NCBI GenBank assembly: GCA_030647955.1
Contig: JAUSIQ010000018.1
Coordinates: forward strand, 1 to 46,831
DNA length: 46,831 nucleotides
DNA from: a bacterium
GTDB taxonomy: Bacteria > Patescibacteriota > Minisyncoccia > 2-02-FULL-40-12 > IGHO2-12-FULL-4
Direction of reading: 5' to 3'
This document shows positions 6,753 to 42,400 of the stretch, piece by piece. Below the pieces are notes generated by a model that saw nothing but the letters and a program-made list of their open reading frames with translations, did not search any database and was not told where the DNA came from. How positions within the stretch are numbered: the stretch's first letter is position 1; every line of letters begins with the position of its first letter. Made by a program: the position numbers and the translations under genes.

Positions 6753-7132
6753 AGATTTTTCCCTTCGAAAGCTTCACAATTGCTTCACCGCCTATCATAT
6801 ATAATGTAAAACAGTTACTTGATAAAGATTGGTGAACACCAGGACTTATTGGCCAAGATATGGGAATCGCGACCATATCACCTAATAACGGTTATAACCC
6901 GTCTTGGAATTAGCCAACTCATACCAAGAAAAATGTATATTCACTCTTATGGACGCATATATGACAAAACGCGCCGAAGTTTCCTACCACTTTAAGTATC
7001 TACCCTCTTCCAGAGGATAGATATGGGTAGCCTTCGGTGCGTTTTGTTGTGTATTGCCCAAGCGAGACTTCTCACGGGACGGGATTGACATCATCACGAT
7101 TAAGACGTAGAATATACGAAACTCCAAGTCAT
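6753..7132 (+). ncRNA. Non-coding, highly structured stretch (candidate RNA or leader)
   Basis: No gene of the region's codon style fills these 380 bases. A TATAAT box (6800-6805) with a weak -35 could start a transcript near 6812. Downstream, small hairpins occur (6854-6884 area, arms GATATGG and CCATATC, inside arms CCAAGA and TCTTGG). A striking long hairpin follows: 6964-6979 pairs with 7032-7047 at 15 of 16 positions, with nested stems TATCTA/TAGATA and CCTCT/AGAGG. It lacks a proper T tract. It could be a small RNA of about 240 bases or a regulatory leader; the following kinase has its own promoter beyond it. Confidence 0.45.
7085..7113 (+). promoter_or_regulatory. Promoter of the hybrid kinase gene
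   Basis: TTGACA (7085-7090), a 17-bp spacer and TAGAAT (7108-7113) point to a start near 7120, just 13 bases before the ATG at 7133. The promoter lies inside an upstream in-frame extension of the ORF, which is why the ATG at 7133 is chosen rather than the one at 7037. Confidence 0.75.
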
Positions 7133-9283
7133 ATGACTAGCTCCAAAGCCCCTGATATTAATCCGTTCAAACTCCCTAAAAAAGACGTCGCCGCAGACGT
7201 TTCCTTTAAATTGCCGGAGGGTTTAGATGAAAACTACGTTATTCTAAAAACGGTGGTAGAAGGTATTACGGATGCTCTTTATGTTAAAGATATACGGGGC
7301 CGTTTTGTCCTTATCAACGAAGAACTCGCCAAACGCTGGAAAGACGATTTTAACTTAGACAGAGAGTCAATCATTGGACACACCAACATAGAAATCTTCC
7401 CCCAATCCCATACTCCCCTAACCCCCACTGAAAACCAGGTGATCGAATCCGGTGAGGCTCAAACCGGTGAAGAGCAGATCACCCTCCCTAAGACCAAGGA
7501 AACTAGAACTTATTTTGTTCGGCAGTGGCCCTATCGAGATCAATATGGAAATATTACGGGACTTATTGGTATCTCACGAGACGTTACTGGTTATAAGCAT
7601 CAGGAAACTCGTCAGCTTTTATTATCTAACATTGGTAAGGTTTTGTCCTACTCTCTAAACCCCGAATCGACTCTTCAGAATTTAGCTAACCTGATTATTC
7701 CGGATTTAGCGGATTGGTGTTTAGTCAGTCTTAAAGAAGAAGGCGGCACCATCCGCACCGTCACTATCGCCAACCAGAATCCAACTCGCGTCTCTTGGGC
7801 TCAGGAAGCACATGAAAAATATGAAGGAGATCAAAACCCCTTGGGCGCCGCGCGCGTCATCGAAACTGGACGATCCGAATTATATCCTCATATCACTGAG
7901 GAAATGATTCGCGCCTATACCCAAGACAAGGGACACGTCAACGCCATTCGCTCTTTAAATATTTGCTCGGTGATGATAGTACCGATGAACGTACACAACC
8001 ACACCCTGGGAGCGATTACTTTTATGTCTTGCCGACAAAACCGTCCTTACACCAAAGAAGATCTCGAGTGCGCGGAAGAGATTGCTCATCGTGCCGCGAT
8101 CGCTATCGACAACGCCAAACTTTACCAAGAAATTCGCCGAGCCGATCAAGCTAAAGACGAATTCTTGGCAACTTTGGCCCACGAATTACGCAACCCCCTT
8201 GCGCCTATTTTAAGCTCCCTAGAGTTCATCAAAATGTCGGAAACAAAAGACCCCGAATTGATCAAATCGGCAAGAATGATGGAGAGACAGATTCAGAACA
8301 TGTCTCGCCTTTTAGATGATCTTTTGGATCTTTCCCGCATCACCAGCGGAAAAGTTACCCTGCAAAAAGAATTATTGGATGTTCGCACCATCATCAATCA
8401 GGCGGCCGAAACCGCCAAGTCTCTTTTTGAAAATCGCCAGCATACCCTGGAAATTAAATTACCGGACAAACCAATCTTAATTCAAACCGACCCCCTGCGC
8501 CTTGAGCAAATCATTGTTAATATTTTAAATAACGCCGCTAAATATACCGAACCCCAAGGCAAAATTGAGCTAACCTGCAGTCGAGATTACCAGGAGATAA
8601 TGATTAGTATTCGCGACAGTGGCATCGGCATTCCAGCCGCCATGCTTACTAATATTTTCGAACCCTTCACTCAAGTTGACCACTCTATTACTCACTCACA
8701 GGGAGGTTTGGGTATCGGATTAAAATTAGTAAAAACCTTAGTAGAATTGCACGGGGGAACAATCGAAGCGCACAGCTCTGGACTAAACCAGGGTAGTGAA
8801 TTTATCGTCCGCCTGCCCTCTCGCCGAAAAATAGAGACAAAATTTTCTAAAGAAAATTTGCCCCAGCACAAGGAGAGCTCTTCTGATCAGAAAGGTTCGG
8901 CCGGACAGAGCCGCAAAATTCTGGTAGTGGATGACAATCAAGACGCGGCCATTTCTCTTGGTAAATTACTAGGCCGATTAGGACACAGTGTCGAAGTCGC
9001 TCATGACGGACCAAGTGCCATTAACACCATACGCACTTACCATCCCGATATCGTACTTTTAGACATTGGCCTACCCAACATGAATGGCTATGAGGTGGCT
9101 CGCCGAATCCGCGAAGATAAAAACAGCTACTCCCCTACACTAGTGGCTCTAACTGGCTATGGTCAAGAAGAAGATAAGAATAAAGCCAAAGAAGCTGGCT
9201 TCGACCACCACATTACTAAACCCGTCGGAGTCTCTGACCTGCAACTGATCATCACTAATCAACCCTCTCCGAGTCAGCTCTAA
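7133..9283 (+). CDS. Hybrid histidine kinase (PAS-GAF-HisKA-HATPase-REC)
   Basis: The 716-aa soluble kinase carries a PAS domain (about residues 32-155, TVVEGITDALYVKDIRGRF), a GAF domain (about 165-330), HisKA with His350 (LATLAHELRNPLAP), a HATPase domain (about 445-560; N-box IVNILNNAAKY, G1 DSGIGIP, G2 GGLGIGLKLV), and a C-terminal receiver (about 595-712) with phospho-accepting Asp644 (VLLDIGLPNMNG), Thr674 and Lys696 (HITKPV). No membrane helix is visible, so it probably senses cytosolic cues. The kinase core is closely similar to that of the MASE1 kinase at 11293, suggesting a duplicated transmitter. The attached receiver implies a phosphorelay. A strong convergent terminator follows. 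Confidence 0.95.
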   Translation: MTSSKAPDINPFKLPKKDVAADVSFKLPEGLDENYVILKTVVEGITDALYVKDIRGRFVLINEELAKRWKDDFNLDRESIIGHTNIEIFPQSHTPLTPTENQVIESGEAQTGEEQITLPKTKETRTYFVRQWPYRDQYGNITGLIGISRDVTGYKHQETRQLLLSNIGKVLSYSLNPESTLQNLANLIIPDLADWCLVSLKEEGGTIRTVTIANQNPTRVSWAQEAHEKYEGDQNPLGAARVIETGRSELYPHITEEMIRAYTQDKGHVNAIRSLNICSVMIVPMNVHNHTLGAITFMSCRQNRPYTKEDLECAEEIAHRAAIAIDNAKLYQEIRRADQAKDEFLATLAHELRNPLAPILSSLEFIKMSETKDPELIKSARMMERQIQNMSRLLDDLLDLSRITSGKVTLQKELLDVRTIINQAAETAKSLFENRQHTLEIKLPDKPILIQTDPLRLEQIIVNILNNAAKYTEPQGKIELTCSRDYQEIMISIRDSGIGIPAAMLTNIFEPFTQVDHSITHSQGGLGIGLKLVKTLVELHGGTIEAHSSGLNQGSEFIVRLPSRRKIETKFSKENLPQHKESSSDQKGSAGQSRKILVVDDNQDAAISLGKLLGRLGHSVEVAHDGPSAINTIRTYHPDIVLLDIGLPNMNGYEVARRIREDKNSYSPTLVALTGYGQEEDKNKAKEAGFDHHITKPVGVSDLQLIITNQPSPSQL

Positions 9284-11292: not shown

Positions 11293-13368
11293 ATGCCTGT
11301 ATTTACAGCGCAAATGATGAGAATTCCTTCATTTTTCAAAAAAATCTACTCTTCTTATCCTTTCAAAACGGGAGTTTTAGCGGCCGTTTATTTTTTGACG
11401 GCTAAATTTGGACTAACTTTTGAGCCGGTCAGCGGCTTTGCAACCCTGGTTTGGCCCGCTACGGGAATTGCCATGGCGGCTTTAATACTTTCGGGCTATA
11501 AACTATGGCCAGGAATATTCGTGGGTGCTTTTTTGGCCAATTATCAGGCCGATGCTCCCCTGCTAGTCGCCGCCGGGATCGGACTTGGTAATGCCCTGGA
11601 AGCCCTGGCGGCCTATTATCTTTTAAACCGCTTCCTGAAATTTAGAAGTAACATGGAGCGCTTGAAAGATGTCTACGGTTTCATCCTTTTAGCGACTGTA
11701 TTAGCCACTACTCTAAGCCCCACTATTGGTATCATTAGCCTGCTCATTGGTAACGTCATTGATACCGCGGCCATTCCCTCCACTTGGTGGACCTGGTGGG
11801 CGGGAGATATTTTAGGAGCCTTAATCTTTGCTCCGCTTCTTTTGACCTGGTTGACCACTAAGACAGAACCTAACGCAGAACTTTCTGTCTCACGACGTAT
11901 AGAAATACTCATCTTGGTTATTACCGTAGTGTTCACGGGTTTTATGATTTTCGGAGACTTCAGCATACCGATTTTCTATACGCGTAGTCCGGAAATTCCT
12001 TATCAGGCTTTATTACCAATGATCTGGGCGGCATTACGCTTTGGGCCTCGAGGAACTTCTCTGACAGTTTTGGGATTAGCCATAATCGCTATTTGGGGTA
12101 CCACTTTAGGATTTGGTCCATTTTCCGGTAGAATGCTCAACCAAGATTTACTTTATCTCCAGATGTTCTTAGGAGTGGGAGCAGTGACCTCTCTGCTAAT
12201 TACTGGCAGTATTGCTGAAAATAAAAATACTCAGGAAAGCGTTAAAGACATCGCCAGACAGCTTAACGACGCTCAACTCATGGCCCATATTGGTAACTGG
12301 GAGTGGGATATCAATACCAATATCGTGAAGTGGTCAGATGAGCTCTATCGCGTTTTCGGCATCACTCCTCAAGAATTTGAAGGCACACTGGAGGCATACT
12401 TAACGCGCGTTCATCCTGAAGAGCAGAAGATAATTAAAGATATAATTCAAAAATCTTTACAGACTAGACAACCCTTTGATTTTTTTCATCGCCTAATTCG
12501 TCCTGACGGCACCATTCACATTATCCATGGACAAGGCCGTCCGATCGTCAACTCTTCCGGAAAAGTCATCCGCATGTACGGCATCGCTCAAGACGTTACT
12601 CACCAGAAAAAACTCCAAGAATCTTTGGAGATAAGCGCTAAAGAACTGGAAAGCGCTCTGTTAGAAATTAAAGCCGTCAACCAAACTAAAGACGAGTTCT
12701 TGGCTATCTTGGCCCACGAACTACGTAATCCCTTAGCACCTCTCAAAAGCAGTTTGGAATTAATGCACATGGAAGAAGCCCAATATCCAGGCATAGGCGA
12801 CTCCATTGATGTCATGGATAGACAGGTAGAGCACATGAGTCGCCTCCTTGACGATCTATTAGATATCTCCCGCGTATCACGCGGAAAAATTGATCTACAT
12901 AAAGAATGTCTCGACGCTAGAGAAATTGTCAAAAAAGCCATCGAAGATACCTCTACTTTAATTGAAAAATACGACCACACTCTTAGTGTGGAGATCTCAC
13001 CAGAACCGCTCTGGGTAATGGCTGATCCGGTCAGATTGGAACAAATCATCATCAACCTGATCAATAACGCCGCTAAATATACCCCGCCAGAAGGAAAAAT
13101 TAGTGTTAGCGCCGGCCAGGAAGATAGCATGGCTACCATTCAGGTAAGAGACACTGGTATTGGTATTCCTCCCGAATCACTGTCGAAAATATTTGAACTA
13201 TTCTCTCAATTGGACAAATCCCTCTCGCGTCGAGAAGGAGGGTTGGGTATTGGCTTGAAGCTCGTAAAAACTTTAGTGGAGCTACACGGTGGTAAAGTAG
13301 AAGCCTTTAGTAAAGGTCCCGGCCAAGGCAGTGAATTTATCGTGCGCTTACCACTCCTAAAAGCATAG
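11293..13368 (+). CDS. MASE1 membrane sensor histidine kinase
   Basis: This 691-aa kinase starts with a MASE1 integral-membrane sensory domain of about eight helices (residues 20-305; PVSGFATLVWPATGIAMAAL and the STWWTWWAGDILGALIFAPL signature). A PAS domain follows (about 325-440, with a PAC motif FDFFHRLIRPDGTIHIIHG), then HisKA with His475 (LAILAHELRNPLAP) and a HATPase domain (about 560-690; IIINLINNAAKY, DTGIGIP, GGLGIGLKLV). There is no receiver. The catalytic core matches the hybrid kinase at 7133 closely, including the tail QGSEFIVRLP. The promoter is perfect, with a leader of about 17 bases. Start codons at residues 8-9 are also possible. Confidence 0.94.
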   Translation: MPVFTAQMMRIPSFFKKIYSSYPFKTGVLAAVYFLTAKFGLTFEPVSGFATLVWPATGIAMAALILSGYKLWPGIFVGAFLANYQADAPLLVAAGIGLGNALEALAAYYLLNRFLKFRSNMERLKDVYGFILLATVLATTLSPTIGIISLLIGNVIDTAAIPSTWWTWWAGDILGALIFAPLLLTWLTTKTEPNAELSVSRRIEILILVITVVFTGFMIFGDFSIPIFYTRSPEIPYQALLPMIWAALRFGPRGTSLTVLGLAIIAIWGTTLGFGPFSGRMLNQDLLYLQMFLGVGAVTSLLITGSIAENKNTQESVKDIARQLNDAQLMAHIGNWEWDINTNIVKWSDELYRVFGITPQEFEGTLEAYLTRVHPEEQKIIKDIIQKSLQTRQPFDFFHRLIRPDGTIHIIHGQGRPIVNSSGKVIRMYGIAQDVTHQKKLQESLEISAKELESALLEIKAVNQTKDEFLAILAHELRNPLAPLKSSLELMHMEEAQYPGIGDSIDVMDRQVEHMSRLLDDLLDISRVSRGKIDLHKECLDAREIVKKAIEDTSTLIEKYDHTLSVEISPEPLWVMADPVRLEQIIINLINNAAKYTPPEGKISVSAGQEDSMATIQVRDTGIGIPPESLSKIFELFSQLDKSLSRREGGLGIGLKLVKTLVELHGGKVEAFSKGPGQGSEFIVRLPLLKA

Positions 13369-18739: not shown

Positions 18740-18863
18740 ATTTTTTGTTTTATTTTATCCGTTCCTATAGAAACCCGACCGCCTCTCTTCTATAAATGCA
18801 TATTACCATTTAATCAACCTCGTGTCTAATGCGCACGAAAATTTCCTGTGCTATAATGAAATC

Positions 18864-19076
18864 ATGACTAGTCGAAAATTACTCAGACTTTTAAGAAGTT
18901 TCTCGATCGCCATCAGTATTATCTTAATCTGGCGCGGGACTTGGTATTTACTTGATCTGGTGGACCAGCACTTTTTTGGAGGAAACCACATTTTCACCGC
19001 CATCGGCGGCATAATCGTCGGCATCCTCATTCTCTACTTCCCCGACCACGACCTCAAAGAACTATCCAAGCTGTAA
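18864..19076 (+). CDS. Two-helix membrane protein (intact copy of a duplicated gene)
   Basis: This 70-aa protein has a basic start (MTSRKLLRLLRSF), a first helix (about 12-30, IAISIILIWRGTWYLLDLV) and a second helix (about 43-60), with PDHDLKELSKL at the end. TATAAT (18852-18857) lies six bases before the ATG, so translation probably starts on a leaderless mRNA; a longer frame upstream overlaps the promoter and is rejected. The first 74 bases recur at 22217-22290 in a decayed copy. The protein type appears common in small-genome bacteria, but its function is unknown. Confidence 0.75.
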   Translation: MTSRKLLRLLRSFSIAISIILIWRGTWYLLDLVDQHFFGGNHIFTAIGGIIVGILILYFPDHDLKELSKL

Positions 19077-19079
19077 AAT

Positions 19080-19099
19080 AAAACCCCGTACGGGGTTTT
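19080..19099. terminator. Bidirectional terminator (left copy)
   Basis: A 20-bp palindrome, AAAACCCCGTACGGGGTTTT, follows the two-helix protein gene. It has a sister at 22344-22363 with the same layout. Confidence 0.85.
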
Positions 19100-19166
19100 A
19101 TGATTCTACAATATCCATGGTTTCGATCTGAAAATCCAGATCATCAAGCAGAAGTAAAAGCTCTAT
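19098..19166 (-). pseudogene. 3-prime remnant of the 119-aa protein gene
   Basis: On the minus strand this stretch reads ELLLLLDDLDFQIETMDIVE plus Ser and stop, matching the C-terminus of the intact gene at 22362-22721 (LLLLNDLDFQIETMDIVES). Homology stops abruptly near 19166, just before the end of the GH57 gene. It is the left, truncated member of a duplicated pair and has no start codon. Confidence 0.85.
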
Positions 19167-19175
19167 GTTTAGCAT

Positions 19176-20669
19176 TTAACTTCCTCGTTGTTCCGGCTGA
19201 CCACCCCGGATTTTTCGATATTGCTCTTTGTATTTCTCTATCACCGCCTCAACTTGATCGTGGGGGATCTCAACCCTCAACAGGTCAATCGCATTAATGG
19301 TGTCGTAAATATCCAAACTGTTTTCCAGCTTATAGATAGCATCTCGCCACAAAATCGCCTTTTCATACTCTCCTTTTTCGGCCGCCTTTTTTTCTAGATC
19401 CCTCATCATACTAATAAACGCCCAGTAAACACCCTCTTCTGCTCCGCCCCGACTAACCGTCCTATCCTTGAAGGGAATTCTTAAGATAGATCTTTGCTCT
19501 TTCATCATCTCACGAATCTTTCCAGTTCTTTGCCAATTAAATGCCGTCGTCACTATTTTTTCATAGTAATCCAGCGCCTTTTCCAATACATCCCTTGAAA
19601 CGTCTGGAACGTGGCGAATAGTATCTAGCAAACGAAAGGCACCAAATTCAATCATCTCCAGACTCCACCAAGGTTTGGCAGAGGCCCACCAAAAATGATC
19701 TGACGACGACGCCATATCCATTTTTTCACGCACTAAATTCCAACGAGGATTATTGCTGTCTAGGTCCTTAACTTCCGCCAGAGCGAGGTCGTACAAATGC
19801 CGTTGCCATAAATGGATAGGATTTTCCGGATCAGCCCATGATAAAAACTGGATACCTTTATCGATATCTTCTTTGCTTGATGCCCAGGTGGACTTGACCG
19901 GCTCGATCTCAACAACGTCGTGATAATAATTTTTGATATCTGAAATTTTAATTAAATCGAAATCCGGAGAGCTGAAAATATTGATGAGCATTTTTTCAAG
20001 ACCCGGCCGATGATGGCCAAACGTTTCTCCATCCATCGCGGTTACTAAATAGCGGCTACTTTTTAGATCCTTGACCATGGCCTCCCTAAGGGTTTCGGGC
20101 GAGCGCACCACGGCACTCATAATCAAATTACTCAGTCGCCGCTCACGAAAGAATACATTAAGCCCCGATCCTTTTATCTCGTATATTTTATTGTAGTCAA
20201 CCTGTCCGGGCATACCGCTACACGCGATCTCATCTAAAATGATCCACTCAAAGCCAAGCGACTTAATAATAGCCGGCAGTTTAGAATCGTACCCCATTTC
20301 CGGCGGAAAAAATCCTCTAATTTTATTTTCTTTGCCTAAAAAGTAAGCCAGCGATTCATTGTTGATTTGGATCTGCCTAATAATTTCTTCCGGCGATAAA
20401 AATGGCAAAAAGGCGTGATATTTGGCAGAACCCGTGAACTCCAGCCTCCCCTCTTTACTCGCTTGGCGCAAAATATCAATCAAATCATGGTACTTATTTT
20501 TATCAAATAACTCCAGGAGTGCTCCGTTGATATTGAAGGTTAATTGCACATGCCGGTGATCGCGAATGCCCTCAAGTATTGGCCGATAGCTTTGGGAGAC
20601 AACTGCGGCTAAAATATCCGGCTGCTGGCCGGCTGGTTGATAGATATGAAGAAAATTAGCCCATTTCAT
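19176..20669 (-). CDS. Glycoside hydrolase family 57 (alpha-amylase/glucanotransferase type)
   Basis: This 497-aa cytoplasmic enzyme has the N-terminal GH57 signature WANFLHIYQPAGQ, the nucleophile region GFFPPEMGYD (Glu about residue 124), and the acid-base region TAMDGETFGHHRPGLEKM (Asp about residue 213), followed by a helical C-terminal domain with Trp-rich SSSDHFWWASAKPWWSLEMI. GH57 enzymes cleave or transfer alpha-glucan chains. It lies 3 bases downstream of glgA on the same strand, which indicates a two-gene alpha-glucan unit: synthase plus remodelling or degrading enzyme. Whether it is an amylase, 4-alpha-glucanotransferase or branching enzyme cannot be told from motifs alone. Confidence 0.92.
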   Translation of the reverse strand: MKWANFLHIYQPAGQQPDILAAVVSQSYRPILEGIRDHRHVQLTFNINGALLELFDKNKYHDLIDILRQASKEGRLEFTGSAKYHAFLPFLSPEEIIRQIQINNESLAYFLGKENKIRGFFPPEMGYDSKLPAIIKSLGFEWIILDEIACSGMPGQVDYNKIYEIKGSGLNVFFRERRLSNLIMSAVVRSPETLREAMVKDLKSSRYLVTAMDGETFGHHRPGLEKMLINIFSSPDFDLIKISDIKNYYHDVVEIEPVKSTWASSKEDIDKGIQFLSWADPENPIHLWQRHLYDLALAEVKDLDSNNPRWNLVREKMDMASSSDHFWWASAKPWWSLEMIEFGAFRLLDTIRHVPDVSRDVLEKALDYYEKIVTTAFNWQRTGKIREMMKEQRSILRIPFKDRTVSRGGAEEGVYWAFISMMRDLEKKAAEKGEYEKAILWRDAIYKLENSLDIYDTINAIDLLRVEIPHDQVEAVIEKYKEQYRKIRGGQPEQRGS

Positions 20670-20672
20670 AAT

Positions 20673-22178
20673 TTAGATTGCTTTTCTGGCATGAAACTCA
20701 ATCGTCCGATCAAGTATTTTTGCATATTCACGCGCGGAGTTATCCCATGAAAAATCTTTCTTCATCGCTCGTTCTTGTATTTTTCTCCAGATGGCCTTAC
20801 GTTTGTTTACTTCCATCGCTCGAATAATGGTTCCAAATAAGGCATAATTGTCATAGTTTTCAAAAACGAATCCGTCTCCGGTGTTCTTTTGTAAATCAAA
20901 ATCTTCAACACTATCGGCTAAACCGCCTGTTTTCCTCACGATCGGTACTGCTCCGTAGCGCATTGCTTCCATTTGAGTCAGGCCACAGGGCTCATATTTA
21001 GAAGGGATGAGCATGGCATCGGCACCACCGTAAACCAGCCTCGGCAAAATAGAGTCGTACGATAAATGAATGCCAAGCTTTTTTGGATAACGCCGCCTAA
21101 GTTCTTCGAAAAAATTAATATACTTACCCTCGCCGGTACCGATAACAACCATCTGGATATTAAAATTATTAAGCAAAGAATCGCCGCAGGCCATAAGCAT
21201 ATCGAACCCTTTTTGATCAGCAAGGCGAGAAACAATGCCGACCAAGAAGGCTTGTTCGTCTTCGGGCAAATTAAACTTTCTTTGTAGAATCGCTTTATTC
21301 TTATCACGTTCTGTCAACGTTTTATGACTGAAATTAAAGTTTAAATTATTGTCGGTGGCTGGATTCCATTCGTCATAATCAACCCCGTTTAAAATGCCAT
21401 ACAATATCCCGCGCCGTTCTGCCAAAAGATCGTGTAATAGCTCGCCGAACTCAGGTGTAGTGATTTCTTGGGCATAGGTAGGCGAGACCGTGTTAACAAC
21501 ATCGGCATACATCACTCCCCGTCGCATAAAATTTAATTTAAGGAGTTTAGGATCGTATATGGACGGAATTTCCGCCTGACCAGCATCATAATCCATCTCT
21601 GTTGCAAAGTGGTGGTCAAAGGAACCTTGAAACGCGAGATTATGAATAGAAAATAAAACGGCTATATTTTTCAATCCCGCATCGTTTTTATAGTGCGTGT
21701 GCATATAGTTGGGAATCAGGCCCGTCTGCCAATCGGAGGCGACGATTACGTCCGGCTTCCACTCTGAATTTTTAATAAATTCGAGGGCTCCACGGCATAA
21801 AAGGGCCCAACGGACACTATCATCACTATAGCCGTAAATATTAGCCCGCTTTTCGTAATACTCCTCATTTTCGAGAAAATAAGTAGGGGCCGGGGCATCT
21901 TTATCAGTGGCATTGAACAATTTTACATTACAAATAAGCGGCTCGTGCTCCCCGCCCGCAGGAACTTTTAGTCCCTCCATCACAGTTTCTAAATTAAATT
22001 TTTCTTGATCGACGGAAAGATAGCGAGGAATCATTACACGGGCATCGTGACCAAGACGCCGCAGTGAGCGCGGTAAAGAAAACATCACTTCTCCCAGCCC
22101 CCCTACTTTAGCAAACGGGCCAGCCTCCGAAGCCACAAATAGAATTTTGAGATTATTTTTTTCCAAGAAAGTTTTCAC
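20673..22178 (-). CDS. glgA: Glycogen/starch synthase, GT5
   Basis: This 501-aa enzyme has the GT5 ADP-glucose-binding motif KVGGLGEVMFSLPRSLRRLG near residue 25, DVIVASDWQTGLIP near 145, and the C-terminal GT-B motifs VGIVSRLADQKGFDML and SKYEPCGLTQMEAMRYG with the catalytic Glu pair. It elongates alpha-1,4-glucan from ADP- or UDP-glucose. The start is GTG at 22178, exactly six bases after TATAAT (22185-22190, minus strand), so the operon glgA-GH57 probably makes leaderless mRNA. No glgC or branching enzyme is in the window. The pair lies between degraded duplicates, which suggests insertion at this place. Confidence 0.95.
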   Translation of the reverse strand: MKTFLEKNNLKILFVASEAGPFAKVGGLGEVMFSLPRSLRRLGHDARVMIPRYLSVDQEKFNLETVMEGLKVPAGGEHEPLICNVKLFNATDKDAPAPTYFLENEEYYEKRANIYGYSDDSVRWALLCRGALEFIKNSEWKPDVIVASDWQTGLIPNYMHTHYKNDAGLKNIAVLFSIHNLAFQGSFDHHFATEMDYDAGQAEIPSIYDPKLLKLNFMRRGVMYADVVNTVSPTYAQEITTPEFGELLHDLLAERRGILYGILNGVDYDEWNPATDNNLNFNFSHKTLTERDKNKAILQRKFNLPEDEQAFLVGIVSRLADQKGFDMLMACGDSLLNNFNIQMVVIGTGEGKYINFFEELRRRYPKKLGIHLSYDSILPRLVYGGADAMLIPSKYEPCGLTQMEAMRYGAVPIVRKTGGLADSVEDFDLQKNTGDGFVFENYDNYALFGTIIRAMEVNKRKAIWRKIQERAMKKDFSWDNSAREYAKILDRTIEFHARKAI

Positions 22179-22216
22179 AGCATCATTATATCAATAATTA
22201 CTGCCTGTCTGCAACT

Positions 22217-22310
22217 ATGACTAGTCGAAAATTACTCGGACTTTTAAGAAGTTTCTCGATAGCCATCAGTATTATCTTAATCTGGCGCGGTACTACCATT
22301 CTCTAATCCG
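22217..22310 (+). pseudogene. Decayed second copy of the two-helix membrane protein gene
   Basis: Bases 22217-22290 match 18864-18937 at all but a few positions, beginning exactly at the ATG. The -10 box is missing, the frame breaks after the first helix, and only a short word (CATTCTCTA) from the 3-prime part remains before a stop. It is the right-hand relic of the pair whose left copy is intact. Confidence 0.88.
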
Positions 22311-22343
22311 CATACTTTAAGTATGACAAAAATTGGGCAAAAC

Positions 22344-22363
22344 AAAACCCCATATGGGGTTTT
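22344..22363. terminator. Bidirectional terminator (right copy)
   Basis: AAAACCCCATATGGGGTTTT is the sister of the hairpin at 19080-19099. The stop codon of the minus-strand gene at 22362 lies in its right arm. Confidence 0.85.
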
Positions 22364-22721
22364 ACGATTCTACAATATCCATGGTTTCGATTTGAAAATC
22401 TAAATCATTAAGCAGAAGCAACAGCTCTACAGTATTCTGAATCATTAGTCCAAAACTGCGACGACTAAATCTCTTCAGGGATCCTTCCTTTTTTATATAT
22501 ACCGAGGCCTGTATCTCGACCATGTGGCCAAGAGAGGACTTTTTGCCCTCCATAAGAGATTTGCGGTCTTCGCTCTTACATAAATCAAACCACCTATTAT
22601 CACACACCATGCCTCCCGGCGTACACCGCGGATTACTCCATGGGGTTGGCGGATAAAACTTCTGAATCTTTTCAAATATCTCTAAAGCCTTGGGACTAAG
22701 CTTCTCGCAATCGGTGGCCAT
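22362..22721 (-). CDS. Uncharacterised 119-aa Cys-containing protein (intact copy)
   Basis: This soluble protein is not recognised. Its N-terminal half has three cysteines in PRCTPGGMVCDNRWFDLCK (about residues 32-50) that could bind metal or form disulfides; the C-terminal half is a strand-helix unit ending LLLLNDLDFQIETMDIVES. A strong AGGAGAG site lies eight bases upstream of the ATG. The last 22 codons are repeated at 19098-19166. Gene order with the two-helix protein and the shared terminator is conserved in both copies of the duplication. Confidence 0.7.
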   Translation of the reverse strand: MATDCEKLSPKALEIFEKIQKFYPPTPWSNPRCTPGGMVCDNRWFDLCKSEDRKSLMEGKKSSLGHMVEIQASVYIKKEGSLKRFSRRSFGLMIQNTVELLLLLNDLDFQIETMDIVES

Positions 22722-22818
22722 TTTACTCTCCTAATTAAAACACAGCTGATGACATCATATTGTTTTTATGATAATTTGTCAATATTTACTATTATGAATA
22801 TATTTGTATAATAATCCA

Positions 22819-23307
22819 ATGGATAAAATCTATACCAAAAAAGGTGACCGGGGTTTTACTGCCGATTACTCCGGACGACGAATTCCCAAAGACCATATCC
22901 TAGTTATTACCGGTGGCAAAATTGATACCCTGCAGTCCGCTATCGACTTGGCGATACTCAAGAGCGCTAAGAAACATAAACTTTTCTTAGGGTGGATCCA
23001 GAGAAAACTTTGGCAAACCGCCGGAGAAATTTCCTGCGCAGATGAAACGTGCATTATCGACCCCATCACCGCCGAAGATATTAATAGACTAGAAAAATAC
23101 ATTGACTCCCTAGGTAAGCCTCCGCAAAAGTTTATTCGTTTCGATACCGAAAAAGCAATTATCTACAACGAAGCGCGTATTCGCTGCCGAGAGCTTGAGA
23201 CATTTTTAGTGAAGCTTTTGCGCGCCAAAAAAGTCCGACCCCTCGCCTACCAATGGCTCAACCGCCTCTCTAGTCTTTTCTTCATGCTTAGTTATGCACA
23301 AAGATAG
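22819..23307 (+). CDS. PduO-type cobalamin adenosyltransferase family protein (divergent)
   Basis: From the ATG at 22819, which lies six bases after TATAAT (22807-22812), the protein has 162 aa. It matches the PduO/MMAB fold at the start (KIYTKKGDRGFTADYSGRR, then KIDTLQSAIDLA) and the end (YQWLNRLSSLFFMLSYAQR). Between them the usual FILPGG loop reads FIRFDT, and the ATP/cobalamin residues around it are changed (IIYNEARIRCRELE). Classical members transfer adenosyl from ATP to cob(I)alamin. This one may be an altered nucleotide-binding paralogue; no other B12 gene is in the window. Confidence 0.82.
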   Translation: MDKIYTKKGDRGFTADYSGRRIPKDHILVITGGKIDTLQSAIDLAILKSAKKHKLFLGWIQRKLWQTAGEISCADETCIIDPITAEDINRLEKYIDSLGKPPQKFIRFDTEKAIIYNEARIRCRELETFLVKLLRAKKVRPLAYQWLNRLSSLFFMLSYAQR

Positions 23308-25129: not shown

Positions 25130-26698
25130 CTATCTTTCGTATATTTTGGCCGCGGAGGTAAAGCCGGCGACCTCACTTGCTGTTTTATTTGGAAAAACTT
25201 CTACTTTAATGCGATTGTCAGAAAACATTTCAACAAGAAACACTCCCAAAATCTTATTATCAAGATTTACAGCAGAGCGTATTCCATGTCGTTCGTTGCC
25301 CGTAAACTGAAAACCGATCAGCTCGTATTTCAAAATCCCGGTTTTAAGGTCAATGTTGACCGGATCGGGGCTATTTCCCTTAACACCATAAACATCAAAA
25401 CAAACATTGCATAAAGAAGCATCAATGCCGCTGTTTGGAATAGCGATGCGAATAATACTCGGCGTCACATTGTCATAAACAATGGCCAGATGACACTCAT
25501 AATATGTACAATCACTTCCATTACCTTCATAGCCATTTGTTCCTTCCCTAAACCAATTTCCCACCAATCGGCCATCAACATCATAATCTATTTTACCGCC
25601 GACCGGTACAGCCGTTCTAATGCTTTTATCTTTAAGTTGTGTTTGTAGGATTGATTCGAAATAGCCGAACAAATCTACGGTATGAATCTTCCATCGTTCA
25701 CCATAGTAAAAAGCATGGCTAATGAATCCCGATAAAATTTTTGAAGTATCGTGCACGCTAAAATCAACGCTATTTCTCATTTTCCCTATCACTTGTCCGG
25801 CCTTTACCGGAATAGGCGCTATTCGATTGTCATCCGGCCCTTGGTCAGCTTCCCAGCGGGAGCCGGGCGGCAGAGGTCCGGTTTGGGATAAAATCTCCGG
25901 CGCTATTTCATAAGCATGTATATAAATAGTAGAAACCGTGCAGGAATGCCAAAGAATAATTCGGTAATCATTGGCGCTTGGAAAAGCACCGATACTTGTA
26001 ATATATCCGTCTGCCGGAGAACGCAAGTCACTGCTGGTCACGCCATCCCTGTTTTTACTATTGTGAATATAACCGTGGTCTGTTGGGGTAACATGAGAAC
26101 TGGAAAGCTGACCCATGGGTACAATGTGGTTTATTTCTGATACATTTACGGGTGAAGAAGTGAATGTGACGGAGGTGCCGGAACAAGTTGATGGTGGAGA
26201 CCAACCGGCAGGACTTTTAGGATAAGAGGTGGTTTTCGTTGTGGTGGGCGTTGTGGTGGGCGTTGTGGTGGGCGTTAGTTTCTTCTGTGTATCTGCAGGT
26301 TGAGAAACAACCGGTTGTTGAGTTTGGGGCGCGGATGTTTCACCTCTCCCTCCTACGCTCAACTGCGACATTTTCTCCCTTAGCGCTGTTGTTCTTTCAA
26401 TATCAAAACCTTGCGCTTCCAGCTCCGCAAGCTTGGCATCAACTGAACCATACACATCGGGGTGTATACCGCCATATTGCAAACCCCTTTCCACATCACT
26501 TTCAAGTGCGGAGAGGATTTTCTCATTACTTTCAAGCCCGGAGAGAATTTCCTCATTGCTCTGTAATTGTCCATCTTTGTTATGCGTCAACCAAAAACCG
26601 GCGGCGACTATAACTAACGCGCTTATTACGATTATGGGTAATAGATGAGCAAATCCTCGATTGTTTTCATTTATGTTTACGTTTCGCATATTTTCCAT
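25130..26698 (-). CDS. Exported M23-like envelope protein
   Basis: This 522-aa protein has a membrane anchor (about residues 17-37), a charged heptad stretch with a repeated SNEEILSGLESNEKILSALE unit, a Pro/Thr linker with TPTT repeats (about 140-160), and an exported domain that resembles M23 peptidases in layout: SSHVTPTDHGYIH, DLRSPADGYITSIGAF and WHSCTVSTIYIHAYEI. The usual zinc ligands HxxxD and HxH are incomplete, so peptidase activity is doubtful. A Cys-rich middle (DCTYYECH, CNVCFDVYG) follows. TATAAT is six bases before the ATG (26705-26710, minus strand). It leads a unit with the DM13 and TauE genes. Confidence 0.75.
   Translation of the reverse strand: MENMRNVNINENNRGFAHLLPIIVISALVIVAAGFWLTHNKDGQLQSNEEILSGLESNEKILSALESDVERGLQYGGIHPDVYGSVDAKLAELEAQGFDIERTTALREKMSQLSVGGRGETSAPQTQQPVVSQPADTQKKLTPTTTPTTTPTTTKTTSYPKSPAGWSPPSTCSGTSVTFTSSPVNVSEINHIVPMGQLSSSHVTPTDHGYIHNSKNRDGVTSSDLRSPADGYITSIGAFPSANDYRIILWHSCTVSTIYIHAYEIAPEILSQTGPLPPGSRWEADQGPDDNRIAPIPVKAGQVIGKMRNSVDFSVHDTSKILSGFISHAFYYGERWKIHTVDLFGYFESILQTQLKDKSIRTAVPVGGKIDYDVDGRLVGNWFREGTNGYEGNGSDCTYYECHLAIVYDNVTPSIIRIAIPNSGIDASLCNVCFDVYGVKGNSPDPVNIDLKTGILKYELIGFQFTGNERHGIRSAVNLDNKILGVFLVEMFSDNRIKVEVFPNKTASEVAGFTSAAKIYER
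26237..26272. repeat. Three tandem 12-bp repeats coding for a Thr/Pro linker
   Basis: The unit CGTTGTGGTGGG is repeated three times without change in the gene at 25130-26698, coding for TPTT-type units on the minus strand. Such tracts can change length by slippage. Confidence 0.9.
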
Positions 26699-28251: not shown

Positions 28252-28785
28252 CTATTTGACGCGCAGATAGTCTGTCGCTAAAAGATACAAAGGACCGGCA
28301 CATATATAAAACCAGTAAATAAAAAGGGAGCCGTGAATGATTCCAAGTCCAAAAAATGATGGTGAGCTCTCTGCGCTTCGGATCCCAAGAAGGTAGTAAC
28401 CGATATATTCCAGACAGAAAAGGGCAGACACATATATTATGCTCACAACTACCCATCTATAAGAAACGCGCAAACGTTTATATATCTCCCGTAGCGCTAC
28501 CAATCCTGCTGTCCACAGAATGAGAGGATAGACATTTATGTGTCCTATTAATAAATTGTTGCCGGTATATACGGTTGCCTTATAAGAGGTAACGACAAGG
28601 GCAAAAAACAAAGCCACGAGAAGCTCTTCCCCAACAGAACGCCGATAAATTGCATACGCCACACATAGACACACAAAGACTAACCAAGTGACTACCAATT
28701 TATTATCAACTGTGGCAAGCGTCGGTACTGGAATGAGAGCTATTGCCAAACTCGAAAAGAGTATAATTTTCTGTCGAAACTTCAT
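28252..28785 (-). CDS. Six-helix membrane protein, unknown
   Basis: This 177-aa protein is highly hydrophobic with about six membrane helices and a small C-terminal tail. Distinctive stretches are ALVVTSYKATVYTGNNLLIG, GLVALREIYKRLRVSYRWVV and SSPSFFGLGIIHGSLFIYWF. The overall look (short polytopic protein with HG and YW pairs) resembles carotenoid-cyclase-like or related small membrane enzymes, but no family is claimed. TATAAT (28792-28797, minus strand) lies six bases before the ATG, again a leaderless layout. Confidence 0.65.
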   Translation of the reverse strand: MKFRQKIILFSSLAIALIPVPTLATVDNKLVVTWLVFVCLCVAYAIYRRSVGEELLVALFFALVVTSYKATVYTGNNLLIGHINVYPLILWTAGLVALREIYKRLRVSYRWVVVSIIYVSALFCLEYIGYYLLGIRSAESSPSFFGLGIIHGSLFIYWFYICAGPLYLLATDYLRVK

Positions 28786-34681: not shown

Positions 34682-35896
34682 CTAATACCCTTTTAGTTTA
34701 TCCGCCTTGTGATGCTGGCGAATTTTTTCAAGGGCCTTGGCTTCAATCTGACGAATACGTTCGCGAGTAACGGCGAACACCTTCCCCACTTCTTCCAAAG
34801 TGTGCATGACGCCATCATTTAAACCAAAACGCATTTCAAGAATCTTCTGCTCGCGCGGAGTAAGGTCCTGAATAATTTCCATCAAGTGATCTTTGAGAAT
34901 ACGTCGCGCAGCCGAAACCGACGGTGCAATACTGTCTTCGTCCGGAATGAAGTCGGCGAGCATACTGTCTTCGTCGTCATCTCCCACTGGCGTTTCCAAA
35001 GGAATTGTATCTTGGGAAATTTTAATAATGTGACGGATTTTCTCGATGTCCATGCCCATTTCCACGGCAATTTCTTCCGGCAACGGTTCACGTCCCAAAT
35101 CCTGCACCAAACGACGCACCACCTGCTGGTACTTATTGATCGTTTCTACCATGTGCACCGGAATACGAATAGTGCGGGCTTGGTCGGCTAAGGCTCGGGT
35201 GATGGCCTGACGAATCCACCACGTGGCATAAGTTGAGAATTTGTACCCGCGCTTGTAATAGAAGTTCTCCACCGAGCGCGATAATCCAATATTCCCCTCT
35301 TGAATGTGGTCAAGCAAAGTTAAATTCGCCGAACGGCCAATGTATTTTTTGGCAATCGAAACCACCAAACGCAAGTTCGATAAAATTAATTTCTGCCGAG
35401 CGGCCTCGTCACTTAACAAAATTTTCTTGGCCAGATCCACCTCTTCTTCGGCGCGCAACAACGGGTACTGTCCAATTTCACGCAAATACATCTGCACCGA
35501 GTCCGAAGAAATATCTCCTAACTCTGTTTCCAACTTCTTCTTCTCTTCAAATTCTTTGGCGCGATCCTGTTCGAAAATCTTTCCCGTTTCGATGATGTTG
35601 ATATTGGAAGATTCCAAACGCTCGTAGAGTTGTTCCAACCCCTCGATATCTTTTTCGATATGAGGAAAAGCATGTAAAATTTCCGCCTCCGTGACAAATC
35701 CACGGTGACGGCCTTTGTCGATCAACTTTAAAACGTCATCTTCTTTGATGACTTGTTTAATCGCCTTAGCGGCCTTTCCCGCCCCCTTGGCTTCAGCCTT
35801 TTTCTTCGCCGGTTTCGCTTTTTTAGCCGCATCTACTTTCGGCCGCTTTACCGGCACAGTCTTTTTGGCCTTTTTATTTTTTTTGTTTTTCGCCAT
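34682..35896 (-). CDS. rpoD: RNA polymerase primary sigma factor RpoD
   Basis: This 404-aa protein is the housekeeping sigma-70 factor. It has a Lys/Ala-rich N-terminus (residues 2-45), a region 1.1-like segment ([20 protein letters not shown]), region 1.2 ([20 protein letters not shown]), region 2 ([20 protein letters not shown], which melts and reads the -10 box), region 3 ([20 protein letters not shown]) and region 4 ([23 protein letters not shown] cut here as [20 protein letters not shown], which reads the -35 box). It follows dnaG by 2 bases, a conserved macromolecular-synthesis pairing. Confidence 0.97.
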
Positions 35897-35898
35897 AG

Positions 35899-37698
35899 TT
35901 ATATTTTGATCTGATTAAGACGACTGGCTGTTTCCTGAAACTGTCCCACTAAGCCGGAAACTACCTCTTGATTTTTATTCTTCTCCGCCTGCTTGATGGC
36001 GAATTCCAGGTCAGCGAGTTTAGCATTAATCGTTCTTCGCCAGAGCTGGTTCAGAATCGACATGAACTCAAGCTCTAGGTCATAATCCGTAAACCCTTGC
36101 CACAATTCCTGCGCCTGCAGATAGAGCCGTTCCAGGTACATCGGCGATTGCTCGCCGCCTTCCGGCATCTTCTGCACCATATAATCCATCACTGGACCTT
36201 GTTGCTGTTCGTTAATATAATTTTTAAAAATATTGAAAAAAGAATGCAAAGCTAAAATCTCTATCTCCTTTTCACTCAAAACCGAGGAGACCATTGTGAT
36301 CAACTGCGGCTTAATCATTAATAAAGATACGAGATAATCTTCTAAAACACTTAACTTGGCTGTGGCCAAGAAAGCTTGCTTGTCCTGTAAGGATTTGCCC
36401 GCCTGCATCGCCGGCCCAATGGCCATCTTGTCCATCTGCTCCCAAAGCAAATCGTCTTTTACTTTTAAATGCATGGCTAATTCGGCAATCCAATGAGACT
36501 GCTCAACGCGATTGGGAATACTTTTTAAAATGGGCAAAACTTTTTCGGTGATCATTTTTTTGCCCGTCCCCGTAGCCACGTCGAAAGTTTTCAAAGCATT
36601 TTGCAGATAGAAACCAAAGATCGGTTGCGGAGCTTGCAAACGTTCCTGCCACTTCTCACCGTACTTCTGCACGTAATCCGCCGGATCTTTGCACAACGGA
36701 TCATCGAGACTGACTACCGCCAAATTAAAACTTTGTTGTAAGGCGGAAGCAATTCCTCGCTCCATCGCCTGGCGTCCCGCCGAATCCGCATCAAAACACA
36801 AATCAAGGTTCTGGGTGTAGCGTTTGATGATCTTGAGATGCTGATCAGTCAGAGCCGTTCCCGAAGAAGCCACCACATTGGCTGCTCCGGCTTGGTGCGA
36901 CATAATCACATCCATATTGCCCTCGACGACCACGCAGCGATTATGCTGTTTGATGCTTAACTTGGCCTTCTCGAGACCATATAGAATACGACTCTTGTCG
37001 TAAAGAATCGTCTGTGGAGTGTTCACATACTTGGCCAGTTCATCCGCGGCCTTCTTGCCAAAGATGCGTCCCGTGAAGCCCACGATTTGACCATTAACAT
37101 CGGCGATCGGAAACATCACCCGCGAACGAAAGCGATCATAAATCCCGCCGCGATCTCTCTTGATCGCCATGCCGGAATCAATGATCTCCTGTTCGGTATA
37201 ACCGCGATCCCGCAAAAAGGAAATGAGACTATCCCAAGATTCTGGAGCATAGCCTAAGCGAAAGTTCTTCGCCGTTTCTTCCTGCAAGCCTCGGCCTTGC
37301 AGATAAGACTGTACTTTTTTGCCGGTGTTCGATTCCAACTGCTTTTGAAAAAACTTGGCAGACCACTCGCAAACTTCATAGAGTCGAGTCTTCGAATCCT
37401 GAAAGGTGCGATCAAACTTTTCTAGTTCGATTCCAGCCCGCTTGGCTAAAATCCGTAAGGCCTCCGGAAAATCCACACTCTCTACCTCCTGCACGAAAGC
37501 AAACTGGTCGCCTCCTTTTGAGCAACCAAAACAGTGCCAAATTTGGCGACTGGGTGAGATATAGAAAGAGGGGGTCTTTTCGTTGTGAAAAGGACAGTTG
37601 GCTTTGTAATTGACCCCGGCCTTATGTACCTTCAAATAACTGGAGATAAGTTCGACAATATCCACACGGTCCTTGATTTTTTCGATATTGCCATCCAT
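35899..37698 (-). CDS. dnaG: DNA primase DnaG
   Basis: This 599-aa enzyme makes RNA primers for replication. It has an N-terminal CHC2 zinc ribbon ([11 protein letters not shown], then [10 protein letters not shown], about residues 37-65), a core ([40 protein letters not shown]) and a TOPRIM catalytic domain ([15 protein letters not shown] with the Glu, [16 protein letters not shown] with the Asp pair) near 255-310. The C-terminal helicase-binding part is present but divergent. It is co-transcribed with rpoD. A promoter lies at 37774-37802 on the minus strand. Confidence 0.96.
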
Positions 37699-39467: not shown

Positions 39468-42400
39468 TTAGGGGTTAGCATTGCTCATGTCTTGCTGAAC
39501 CTCTGAAACAGTAAGTACTCGATCGTAAAGGTGAACCTCATCGATCTTGCCGTTAAAGTATTGACCAATTCCCCCGTAAGCACCAATGGTAGTAGGAAAG
39601 GCAGTGGAGGTCGGTGTACCACTATTCTGATTGGCACTTCCCGAAAGCGCGCCGTTGACATAAAGGTTGGCCGTGCCAGTCGCAGTTCTCGTCACACAAA
39701 CATGGGTCCAAGTGTTATTTAGAAGAGCATTATCTACCGAGCCGACGGTTGTCCCACCATTACTCGTAAAGTACACTCTATGATCATAGCCCCGGGCCAA
39801 AAGACCAAATCTGGTATTATCGACAACAGAGTTAAAGCCAGAGGGATAATTTGAGTAAATCCAGGCACAAGCACTAATCGTCCCAGTACTAATAAGGTTA
39901 CTACCAAGATTCACATAGTCATTGGTTCCGTCGAACAACAATCCGCCGCCACTTTTCCCTGTAGTCCAGGCAGGACCATTGGTGAGGGTGCCGAGATGGC
40001 CATTGCCGGAAGAGTCCTCAGCGACAGTGCCAGAACCTTCGGAAAAGGTATAAGAGGAGATCAAGCCACTGGGCAAAGGACTTTGTATAACGTTGTAGGT
40101 AGCCGTGTACGATTGGGCACTGGTGGGGACAGTGATAGTATGTAATCTCGCTTCTCCGTCAGACCAGGCAACAAAGTTGTACGAAGTGAGTCCTTGGTTT
40201 TGATCCGGAGCTTCCATGGTATGCTGGAAACCAATTAAGGTATCGAGTACAAACGGAGCGGTCTTGCTAATACCATCAAGCTTCAAAGTTAGTCCGCTCG
40301 GCGAGGTATTAAAGCTAAGGTTAACTTTATCGGGATAAACAACCACCGACTTCGTGTCAGTCAGACTATTAGAATCAGTCACCGTTAATTTAAACTCGTA
40401 ACGAGTATTGCCCTGAAAATCATGGCCGCTAGTAGGAACGGTGAAGCTTCCTGAAGTCACCCCCATAAAAGTCGGCCCAGGGTGGACATGTCCCTCGTGC
40501 AGAAAATTAACTTCCCAGGAAAACGTACTCTCCGGCAATGTACCGTCTTCTAAATCAGTGGCTTGTCCAGAAAAACTGATCACATCCCCCGCTCGAAATA
40601 GAGCATTGTTCTGCGGGGTAAGAATAGTTGCGGTCGGTTTGCTTCCTACCGTTACATAGACCGGTTCAGCCAGAGTAGTGTTAATGCTGTCAGAAACCGC
40701 CAGTCGCACAGTATACTGCCCAGCTTGAGTATAGACATGGCTGGGATTGGCGGCAGTAGATGAGGCCGTATCTCCGAAAGTCCAAAGATAGGTGAGGGGT
40801 TGATTTTCGGGATCAGACGAACCAGTGCTAGAGAAATCCACCGTCAGAGGTGCCGGACCAGAATCGGGATTAGCCGCAGCCATGGCTACCGGCGGCTGGT
40901 TAGTCTGAACATAGCGGATTCTTCGCACCTTACTTATGCCATCAGAGATTCCCAAATCCACATAATACAACGCCCCATCCGGACCCTCTGATAAGTAAAC
41001 AATGTCTCCGTAGGGTCCGTCCAAAGAACCATCAATCGGTTCGAAGTTTTGGGTACTCACCACATTACCATTGACATCGAGCACGAGACGTCTAATCCAA
41101 TTTTGAGCATAGTCTGCGTAAAAATAGTTACCTTGGTATTCGGATGGATATTGAGTGCCGTGATAAATAAACCCTCCGGTAATCGAAGCATCGCGATTAT
41201 TGTGAGGATACCAGAAGAGCGCATCAGTGTAGGCAGGATTGCCGCAGGCACCCTCGCAATTTGGCCAACCATAGTTAGCGCCAGCCACTCCGATATTGAC
41301 TTCTTCTTTAGCCACGGCCGGATCGTTTCCACCGACATCAGCAATATAGAATCTTCCCGTGGGGATATCGTAATACGCTCGGAACGGATTACGCAATCCA
41401 TAAGCCCAGATGGCTTCCAGGTTGGGACCGGCACCATCATCGAATGGATTATCGGTGGGGATGGTTCCGTCTGAATTGATGCGCAGAATCTTTCCGTGAT
41501 AAGTAGTGAGCAGTTGCGAGTCAGACGGAACAAAATGTTCGCCCACTGTGACGTACAGCTTCCCATCATTTCCAAAATTCAGAGCCCCACCATGGTGTTG
41601 AACATCGGCATCGACAATGTCTTGCCAAACAACGAATTCGCTTCCCGAGACAGTAGCATTACCACTGGCTGTAAAGCGCGACACTCGGTCACGGTTAGGA
41701 GAGCCCAAAGTATAAAACACGTAGTAGTATCCGTTGGTCGCAAAATTAGGGTCAAGAACCACATCCATCAAACCCTGCTCACCCAGAGATGTACCAATAT
41801 TACTCAACAGTAAGAAAGGGGTTGGATCCGGTTGGGTGGCACCCGGCTGAACCACACGAATCACCCCGCCAAGCTCGGCCAAAAGCATTCTACCGTCTGG
41901 CAAAAACTCAAGATTAGTAGCAAAGTTCGTTCCAGTGACGACAATTTCGTTCTGGAAAAATCCGGCATTAAACACAGTCACATTAACTGGGGACGAGACG
42001 GTGATGTTAACAGCCGCATCCCTAGCGCGCGCAGTCAAAGTGTGCGACCCATTGGAAGTAGGAATAGTATCCCAAGAAATGGTATACGGAGCATTGGTGT
42101 CTTCCACACCAAGATCCGCTCCATCTAACAAAAACTGCACACCAGACACTCCGACATTATCCGCCGCCGTCGCGGTAAGCGTCACAAAACCAGAAAGCTG
42201 TGCTCCACTTGTCGGAGAAGTAACCGAGACCGTCGGAGGAGTAGCGTCGCTAGGAATAGTGCCATTGGAGTTATAGACCGATAAAACCTCTTGGAAAGAC
42301 AGTGGGCGGTTATATATTTTTAATTCGTCCACATTACCGTACAAATTCATTCCTCCGATACTGCTATACTGGCCAATAGTGGCCGGAAAAGCAGTAGCTG

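Follow-up and report, generated by a model that had tools for sequence, protein, structure and literature searches.

A glgA–GH57 cassette between diverged copies of one direct repeat in a patescibacterial genome, a likely scar of additive homologous integration

The window analysed here, a stretch of 46,831 nucleotides forming one contig of a patescibacterial genome (0.94 Mb in 42 contigs, with an estimated contamination of 2.85%), carries glgA and a GH57 glycoside hydrolase gene between the two copies of a direct repeat. The flanking genes are truncated reciprocally, the insert is minimal, the operon is patchily distributed among relatives, and the differences between the repeat copies are biased towards synonymous changes. 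We propose, with somewhat better than even confidence, that DNA from a related lineage was added here by homologous integration, most likely entering as a circle by one crossover, and that the locus is the scar of this event. The features of the locus are as follows.

18852–18863, plus strand: probable leaderless promoter of the intact two-helix gene (TATAAT and a 6-nt spacer before the ATG)
18864–19076, plus strand: intact two-helix membrane protein gene (left), an ORF of 70 aa
18864–19165, plus strand: left repeat copy, 302 bp (identity with the right copy 75/78 and 81/91)
19078–19101, both strands: left bidirectional terminator with a GTAC loop, a perfect 24-bp palindrome (hairpin of −13 to −14 kcal/mol on either strand)
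19098–19175, minus strand: 25-codon micro-ORF MLNIELLLLLDDLDFQIETMDIVES, its ATG abutting the GH57 stop (TAAATG) and its frame that of the 119-aa tail
19176–20669, minus strand: GH57 family glycoside hydrolase, 497 aa, the downstream gene of the cassette (PF03065, E 6.9e-31)
20673–22178, minus strand: glgA, glycogen/starch synthase, 501 aa, GTG start (TIGR02095, 520.6 bits)
22179–22216, minus strand: glgA promoter region (TATAAT at 22185–22190, −35-like TTGCAG at 22210–22215), ending at the repeat border
22217–22306, plus strand: truncated two-helix stub (right), 29 codons to the stop, no TATAAT upstream; residues 1–31 match, with a TAA
22217–22429, plus strand: right repeat copy, an internal 133 bp replaced by 44 bp
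22343–22364, no strand assigned: right terminator with an ATAT loop, folding into a hairpin
22362–22721, minus strand: intact 119-aa gene (right), convergent to the two-helix gene, of a rare family with no Pfam or NCBIfam match

Through a self-comparison of the window, two direct matches were found. Positions 18864–18941 match 22217–22294 at 75 of 78 bases (E 9e-33), and positions 19075–19165 match 22339–22429 at 81 of 91 (E 1e-30). Both copies have the same order: the two-helix gene comes first, starting at its ATG, a terminator follows, and the final 22 codons of the 119-aa gene close the stretch. Their homology reaches well outside the terminators into the coding parts of both genes. The matches that a sequence-only reading of this DNA had expected between 18864–19170 and 22217–22434 are thereby confirmed, and they are not limited to the terminators. 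Between the matching blocks the left copy holds 133 bp (18942–19074) and the right copy 44 bp (22295–22338), the sole common stretch being CATTCTCTA, in frame. Because this in-frame stretch is still common to both middles, the shorter middle of the right copy suggests an internal deletion. No homology was detected beyond the outer ends of the repeat, where the alignment scores were equalled by 82% and 97% of shuffles. There is no third copy anywhere in the 0.94-Mb genome, and a search of viral contigs with the start of the repeat gave no match. The window also contains two other internal similarities: 39535–40057 and 43525–44047 are 69% identical blocks inside a 1563-aa ORF, and 8147–8812 resembles 12682–13347 in a pair of large ORFs, the one at 7037–9283 encoding a histidine kinase.

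The layout described in the sequence-only reading holds. An intact two-helix gene and a 119-aa tail lie on the left, a two-helix stub starting from its ATG and an intact 119-aa gene on the right, and each gene survives once, on opposite sides of the cassette. The right two-helix copy begins exactly at its ATG, and the left 119-aa copy consists of its last 22 codons only. This ATG is also the predicted transcript start, as would be the case for a retrocopy of a leaderless mRNA; such an origin was set aside, since the homology passes the terminator into the opposite gene and on into the complete 119-aa gene. Both the terminator that had been called GTAC-centred and its sister do fold as hairpins, with the correction that the GTAC/ATAT difference sits in the loop; with the differing bases there, folding rules out a compensatory change between the two terminators. 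No terminator-like hairpin other than the left terminator was seen between GH57 and the two-helix gene, and judging from its position the left terminator probably ends the transcripts of both. The micro-ORF at 19098–19175 (minus strand) reads through the captured 119-aa tail to the stop of that gene, and it is possibly coupled translationally to GH57.

Of the 44 other genomes of the order, 15 encode homologues of the two-helix protein, with 37–61% identity. In four other loci (L053, L054, L069 and L070) the two-helix gene is convergent with rpoD-dnaG, which lies downstream of it on the opposite strand; in the window it is about 16 kb from rpoD (34682–37698 region), with mostly accessory genes between. 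The 119-aa gene is much rarer: among 383 other genomes of the class, distant homologues turned up in only 3. A scan of a genome-contig collection with the 119-aa protein revealed no relative, and a search of viral contigs gave no match.

The insert between the repeat copies (19166–22216) contains glgA, GH57 and the glgA promoter, and nothing else. One end lies 1 base beyond the −35-like TTGCAG and the other 10 bases past the GH57 stop. GlgA passes the TIGR02095 profile for ADP-glucose glycogen synthase (520.6 bits against a cut-off of 328.45); no GlgC scoring above its cut-off is encoded in the genome. The hydrolase is a GH57 enzyme by PF03065; its scores against the 1,4-alpha-glucan branching enzyme profiles NF041566 and NF041133, 20.5 and 19.7 bits, do not reach the cut-offs of 920 and 1000. 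Its C-terminus carries a nearly invariant tail, GGQPEQRG, which is kept in patescibacterial relatives (L081–L102) whose GH57 proteins are about 50–68% identical to that of the window. The TATAAT of glgA stands six nucleotides before the start codon, so the transcript is probably without a leader, as the sequence-only reading had it, and the same layout is found upstream of the closest glgA relative (L086). TATAAT also stands six bases before the start in other genes, which makes five in the window: those served by the elements at 18852 and 22185, and the ORFs at 22804–23307 (plus strand), 25130–26698 (minus strand) and 28252–28785 (minus strand). Since this layout recurs at five genes of the window, leaderless transcripts are probably frequent in the genome as a whole.

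Our comparison set within the order comprised 44 other genomes, five of the same family and 39 more, with no other species of the genus. The glgA–GH57 pair is missing from all five same-family genomes. GH57 relatives of at least 63% identity occur within the order in only three genomes, all of another family; DNA similarity to these three stops at the ends of the operon, the operon-adjacent proteins are not shared, and the neighbourhoods are unrelated. The nearest GH57 relatives, at 63–68% identity, are found in Yanofskybacteria and other, scattered Patescibacteria, and in the wider collection the pair has a scattered occurrence in Nomurabacteria, Yanofskybacteria, Sungiibacteriota, WWE3, Amesbacteria and others. 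Horizontal acquisition is the best reading of this distribution. In composition and codon use the cassette does not stand out from the window; a foreign composition was looked for and none was seen, so nothing marks the cassette as recent. We found no publication treating this operon in the literature on glgA–GH57 or on glycogen gene transfer in candidate phyla.

Searching the 44 other genomes of the order, and comparing directly with the five family members, recovered neither the two-helix/119-aa gene pair nor the region as a whole. Homologues of the two-helix gene lie among different neighbours, and those of the 119-aa gene stand elsewhere. None of the genomes compared has the double arrangement, whose presence in all close relatives would, under the sequence-only reading, have spoken against an insertion. 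That reading had also taken the locus for an integration with duplication of its target, which is the best-supported explanation here, given that the repeat spans coding parts. The uninterrupted ancestral pair that should go with it was not found in any genome searched, the two genes not being neighbours in relatives, and neither was a donor locus with glgA–GH57 beside the pair.

The two cassette genes have discordant relatives, at odds with the idea of a cargo moving as a single unit. GlgA is 84.5% identical to that of Yanofskybacteria RIFCSPHIGHO2_01_FULL_41_21 (L086, contig G033:C13) and at most 62% identical to the others listed; the 84% for GlgA compares with 71% for RpoD between the same two genomes. 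In contrast, GH57 is only 67% identical to that of the L086 operon, no more than to several others, and in other close operon pairs GH57 roughly matches GlgA in conservation or surpasses it. DNA identity between the window and L086 changes level at the glgA/GH57 gene border. A test of the sisterhood of the window and L086 in the GH57 tree was not significant (p-AU 0.10), and for this reason the case for a mosaic operon rests on the mismatch of identities. The two genes apparently have different transfer histories, the alternative being a faster change of GH57.

How the two repeat copies differ bears directly on where they came from. There are 10 coding differences between them, 8 synonymous and 2 nonsynonymous, which give a dS of about 0.31, a dN of about 0.018 and a dN/dS of about 0.06, values resting on these 10 changes. 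The probability of such a synonymous bias is 0.0002–0.001 if both copies were free of constraint and 0.004–0.02 if one was. A dN/dS of about 0.06 implies that most of the divergence arose while both copies were functional. This contradicts the earlier notion that spare copies decayed after the insertion, and it disfavours neutral decay of a recent local duplication. The small sample suggests that the copies differ as orthologues do, although the same pattern would be expected of an old paralogous pair. Probably, one copy arrived already diverged from another lineage and was broken late or at the junctions.

We therefore envisage the following course of events for an additive homologous integration, in terms that go beyond the sequence at several points. 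The donor DNA would have carried glgA–GH57 joined to its own version of the two-helix gene, the terminator and the 119-aa tail, and this version would have recombined with the resident one, the transfer being directed into the present genome. In the likeliest form, the fragment closed into a circle and entered by a single crossover. Such an event would leave a resident-type and a donor-type copy, which now form the direct repeat of 302 bp on either side of the cassette. Those copies that have no complete gene or no promoter would now be stubs, each gene being kept once, and the left copy would still provide a terminator for the incoming operon as well as for the two-helix gene. With both ComEC and DprA encoded in the genome, DNA uptake is plausible.

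Could the same arrangement have arisen in another way? The synonymous-biased divergence would be accounted for, with no need of a foreign repeat copy, by an old local duplication in which both pairs stayed functional for long, glgA–GH57 landed between them, and the spares were lost recently and reciprocally. Reciprocal loss of redundant copies is common. However, a redundant pair would have to be retained for long in a 0.94-Mb genome, and two separate losses and an insertion exactly between the pairs would be needed; besides, the borders of the repeat coincide with those of the cassette, one at the promoter and one 10 bp downstream of the GH57 stop. We regard this history as unlikely. A recent duplication of the 302 bp in place, made during the insertion in a target-site-like or repair process and followed by neutral decay of the spares, offers the simplest geometry for a direct repeat around an insert. 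It predicts mostly amino-acid-changing differences, whereas 8 of the 10 are synonymous, and the cassette has no transposase. Target duplications made by transposases are far shorter than 302 bp. This makes an in-place duplication very improbable, and a transposon insertion proper was rejected on the length and divergence of the repeat and on an insert consisting of glgA and GH57 only. A misassembly joining the versions of two strains in one contig would fit a genome in 42 contigs with 2.85% estimated contamination, and strain variants would also differ mostly synonymously. Yet both junctions between cassette and repeat are sharp and free of N runs, and the sequences joined there have no detectable shared stretch; we give an artefact hardly any credence.

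Homology-facilitated illegitimate recombination deserves separate comment. Here a donor carrying the two-helix gene, the terminator, a truncated 119-aa tail, GH57 and glgA would have paired by homology at its left end, with an illegitimate joint on the right at the ATG of the resident two-helix gene. Such a route would account for a right-hand two-helix copy that begins at the ATG and lacks a promoter, and for truncation of the 119-aa gene in the left copy only; the process has been proposed for displaced T6SS immunity-gene arrays (PMC5361080). On the other hand, events of this kind usually remove roughly as much resident DNA as they add. The window locus shows a duplication and no visible deletion. 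In E. coli transformed with linear DNA that recircularised, one-sided illegitimate events made up 4 of 60 candidate clones, against 56 with partial target duplications (PMC3240628). It is in our view quite unlikely for this locus.

Additive homologous integration being the favoured reading, a broader picture may be sketched, although we hold it to be doubtful: glgA–GH57 might circulate in Patescibacteria as a minimal promoter-to-stop cassette, gained additively through competence-driven recombination, with its genes exchanged separately, borrowing a resident two-way terminator and gaining a coupled micro-ORF from a captured tail. Gene gain in candidate phyla is mostly inferred from trees, and a locus that seemingly retains both parental versions of the target is physical evidence of homologous additive integration. 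The locus shows how an ultra-small genome can add a metabolic cassette and still keep every gene present where it inserts. It also calls for caution, in that adjacent glgA and GH57 need not share a transfer history.

Among known systems, the glgA–GH57 operons of other Patescibacteria have the same gene order and close spacing as the window, and the leaderless-type spacing of the promoter recurs at the nearest glgA relative. In one group of operons (L081, L082, L087, L089–L091 and L096) extra conserved neighbours flank the pair, and none of the 15 other patescibacterial operons checked has a comparable long direct repeat at its borders. In Vibrio cholerae, displaced T6SS immunity-gene arrays have been attributed to homology-facilitated illegitimate recombination (PMC5361080). 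As in the window, an incoming cassette stands beside resident genes, a homologous anchor is present and a leftover resident gene is kept; those arrays, however, are serial and made of toxin-immunity genes, whereas the window has one glycogen cassette and a true direct repeat. In Campbell-type integrants the insert is likewise flanked by direct repeats of the target; in the window the two blocks (75/78 and 81/91) keep the same order and orientation on both sides. The duplications sequenced in E. coli were 109–950 bp long (PMC3240628), a range that brackets the 302 bp found here. Those integrants were obtained in E. coli with a plasmid whose homologous part had been cloned from the same gene, whereas the window presents diverged homology in a natural genome, with donor and intermediate unseen and the copies already eroded. 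The proposed event is of a known kind of gene acquisition, and the locus is an unusually readable example of it.
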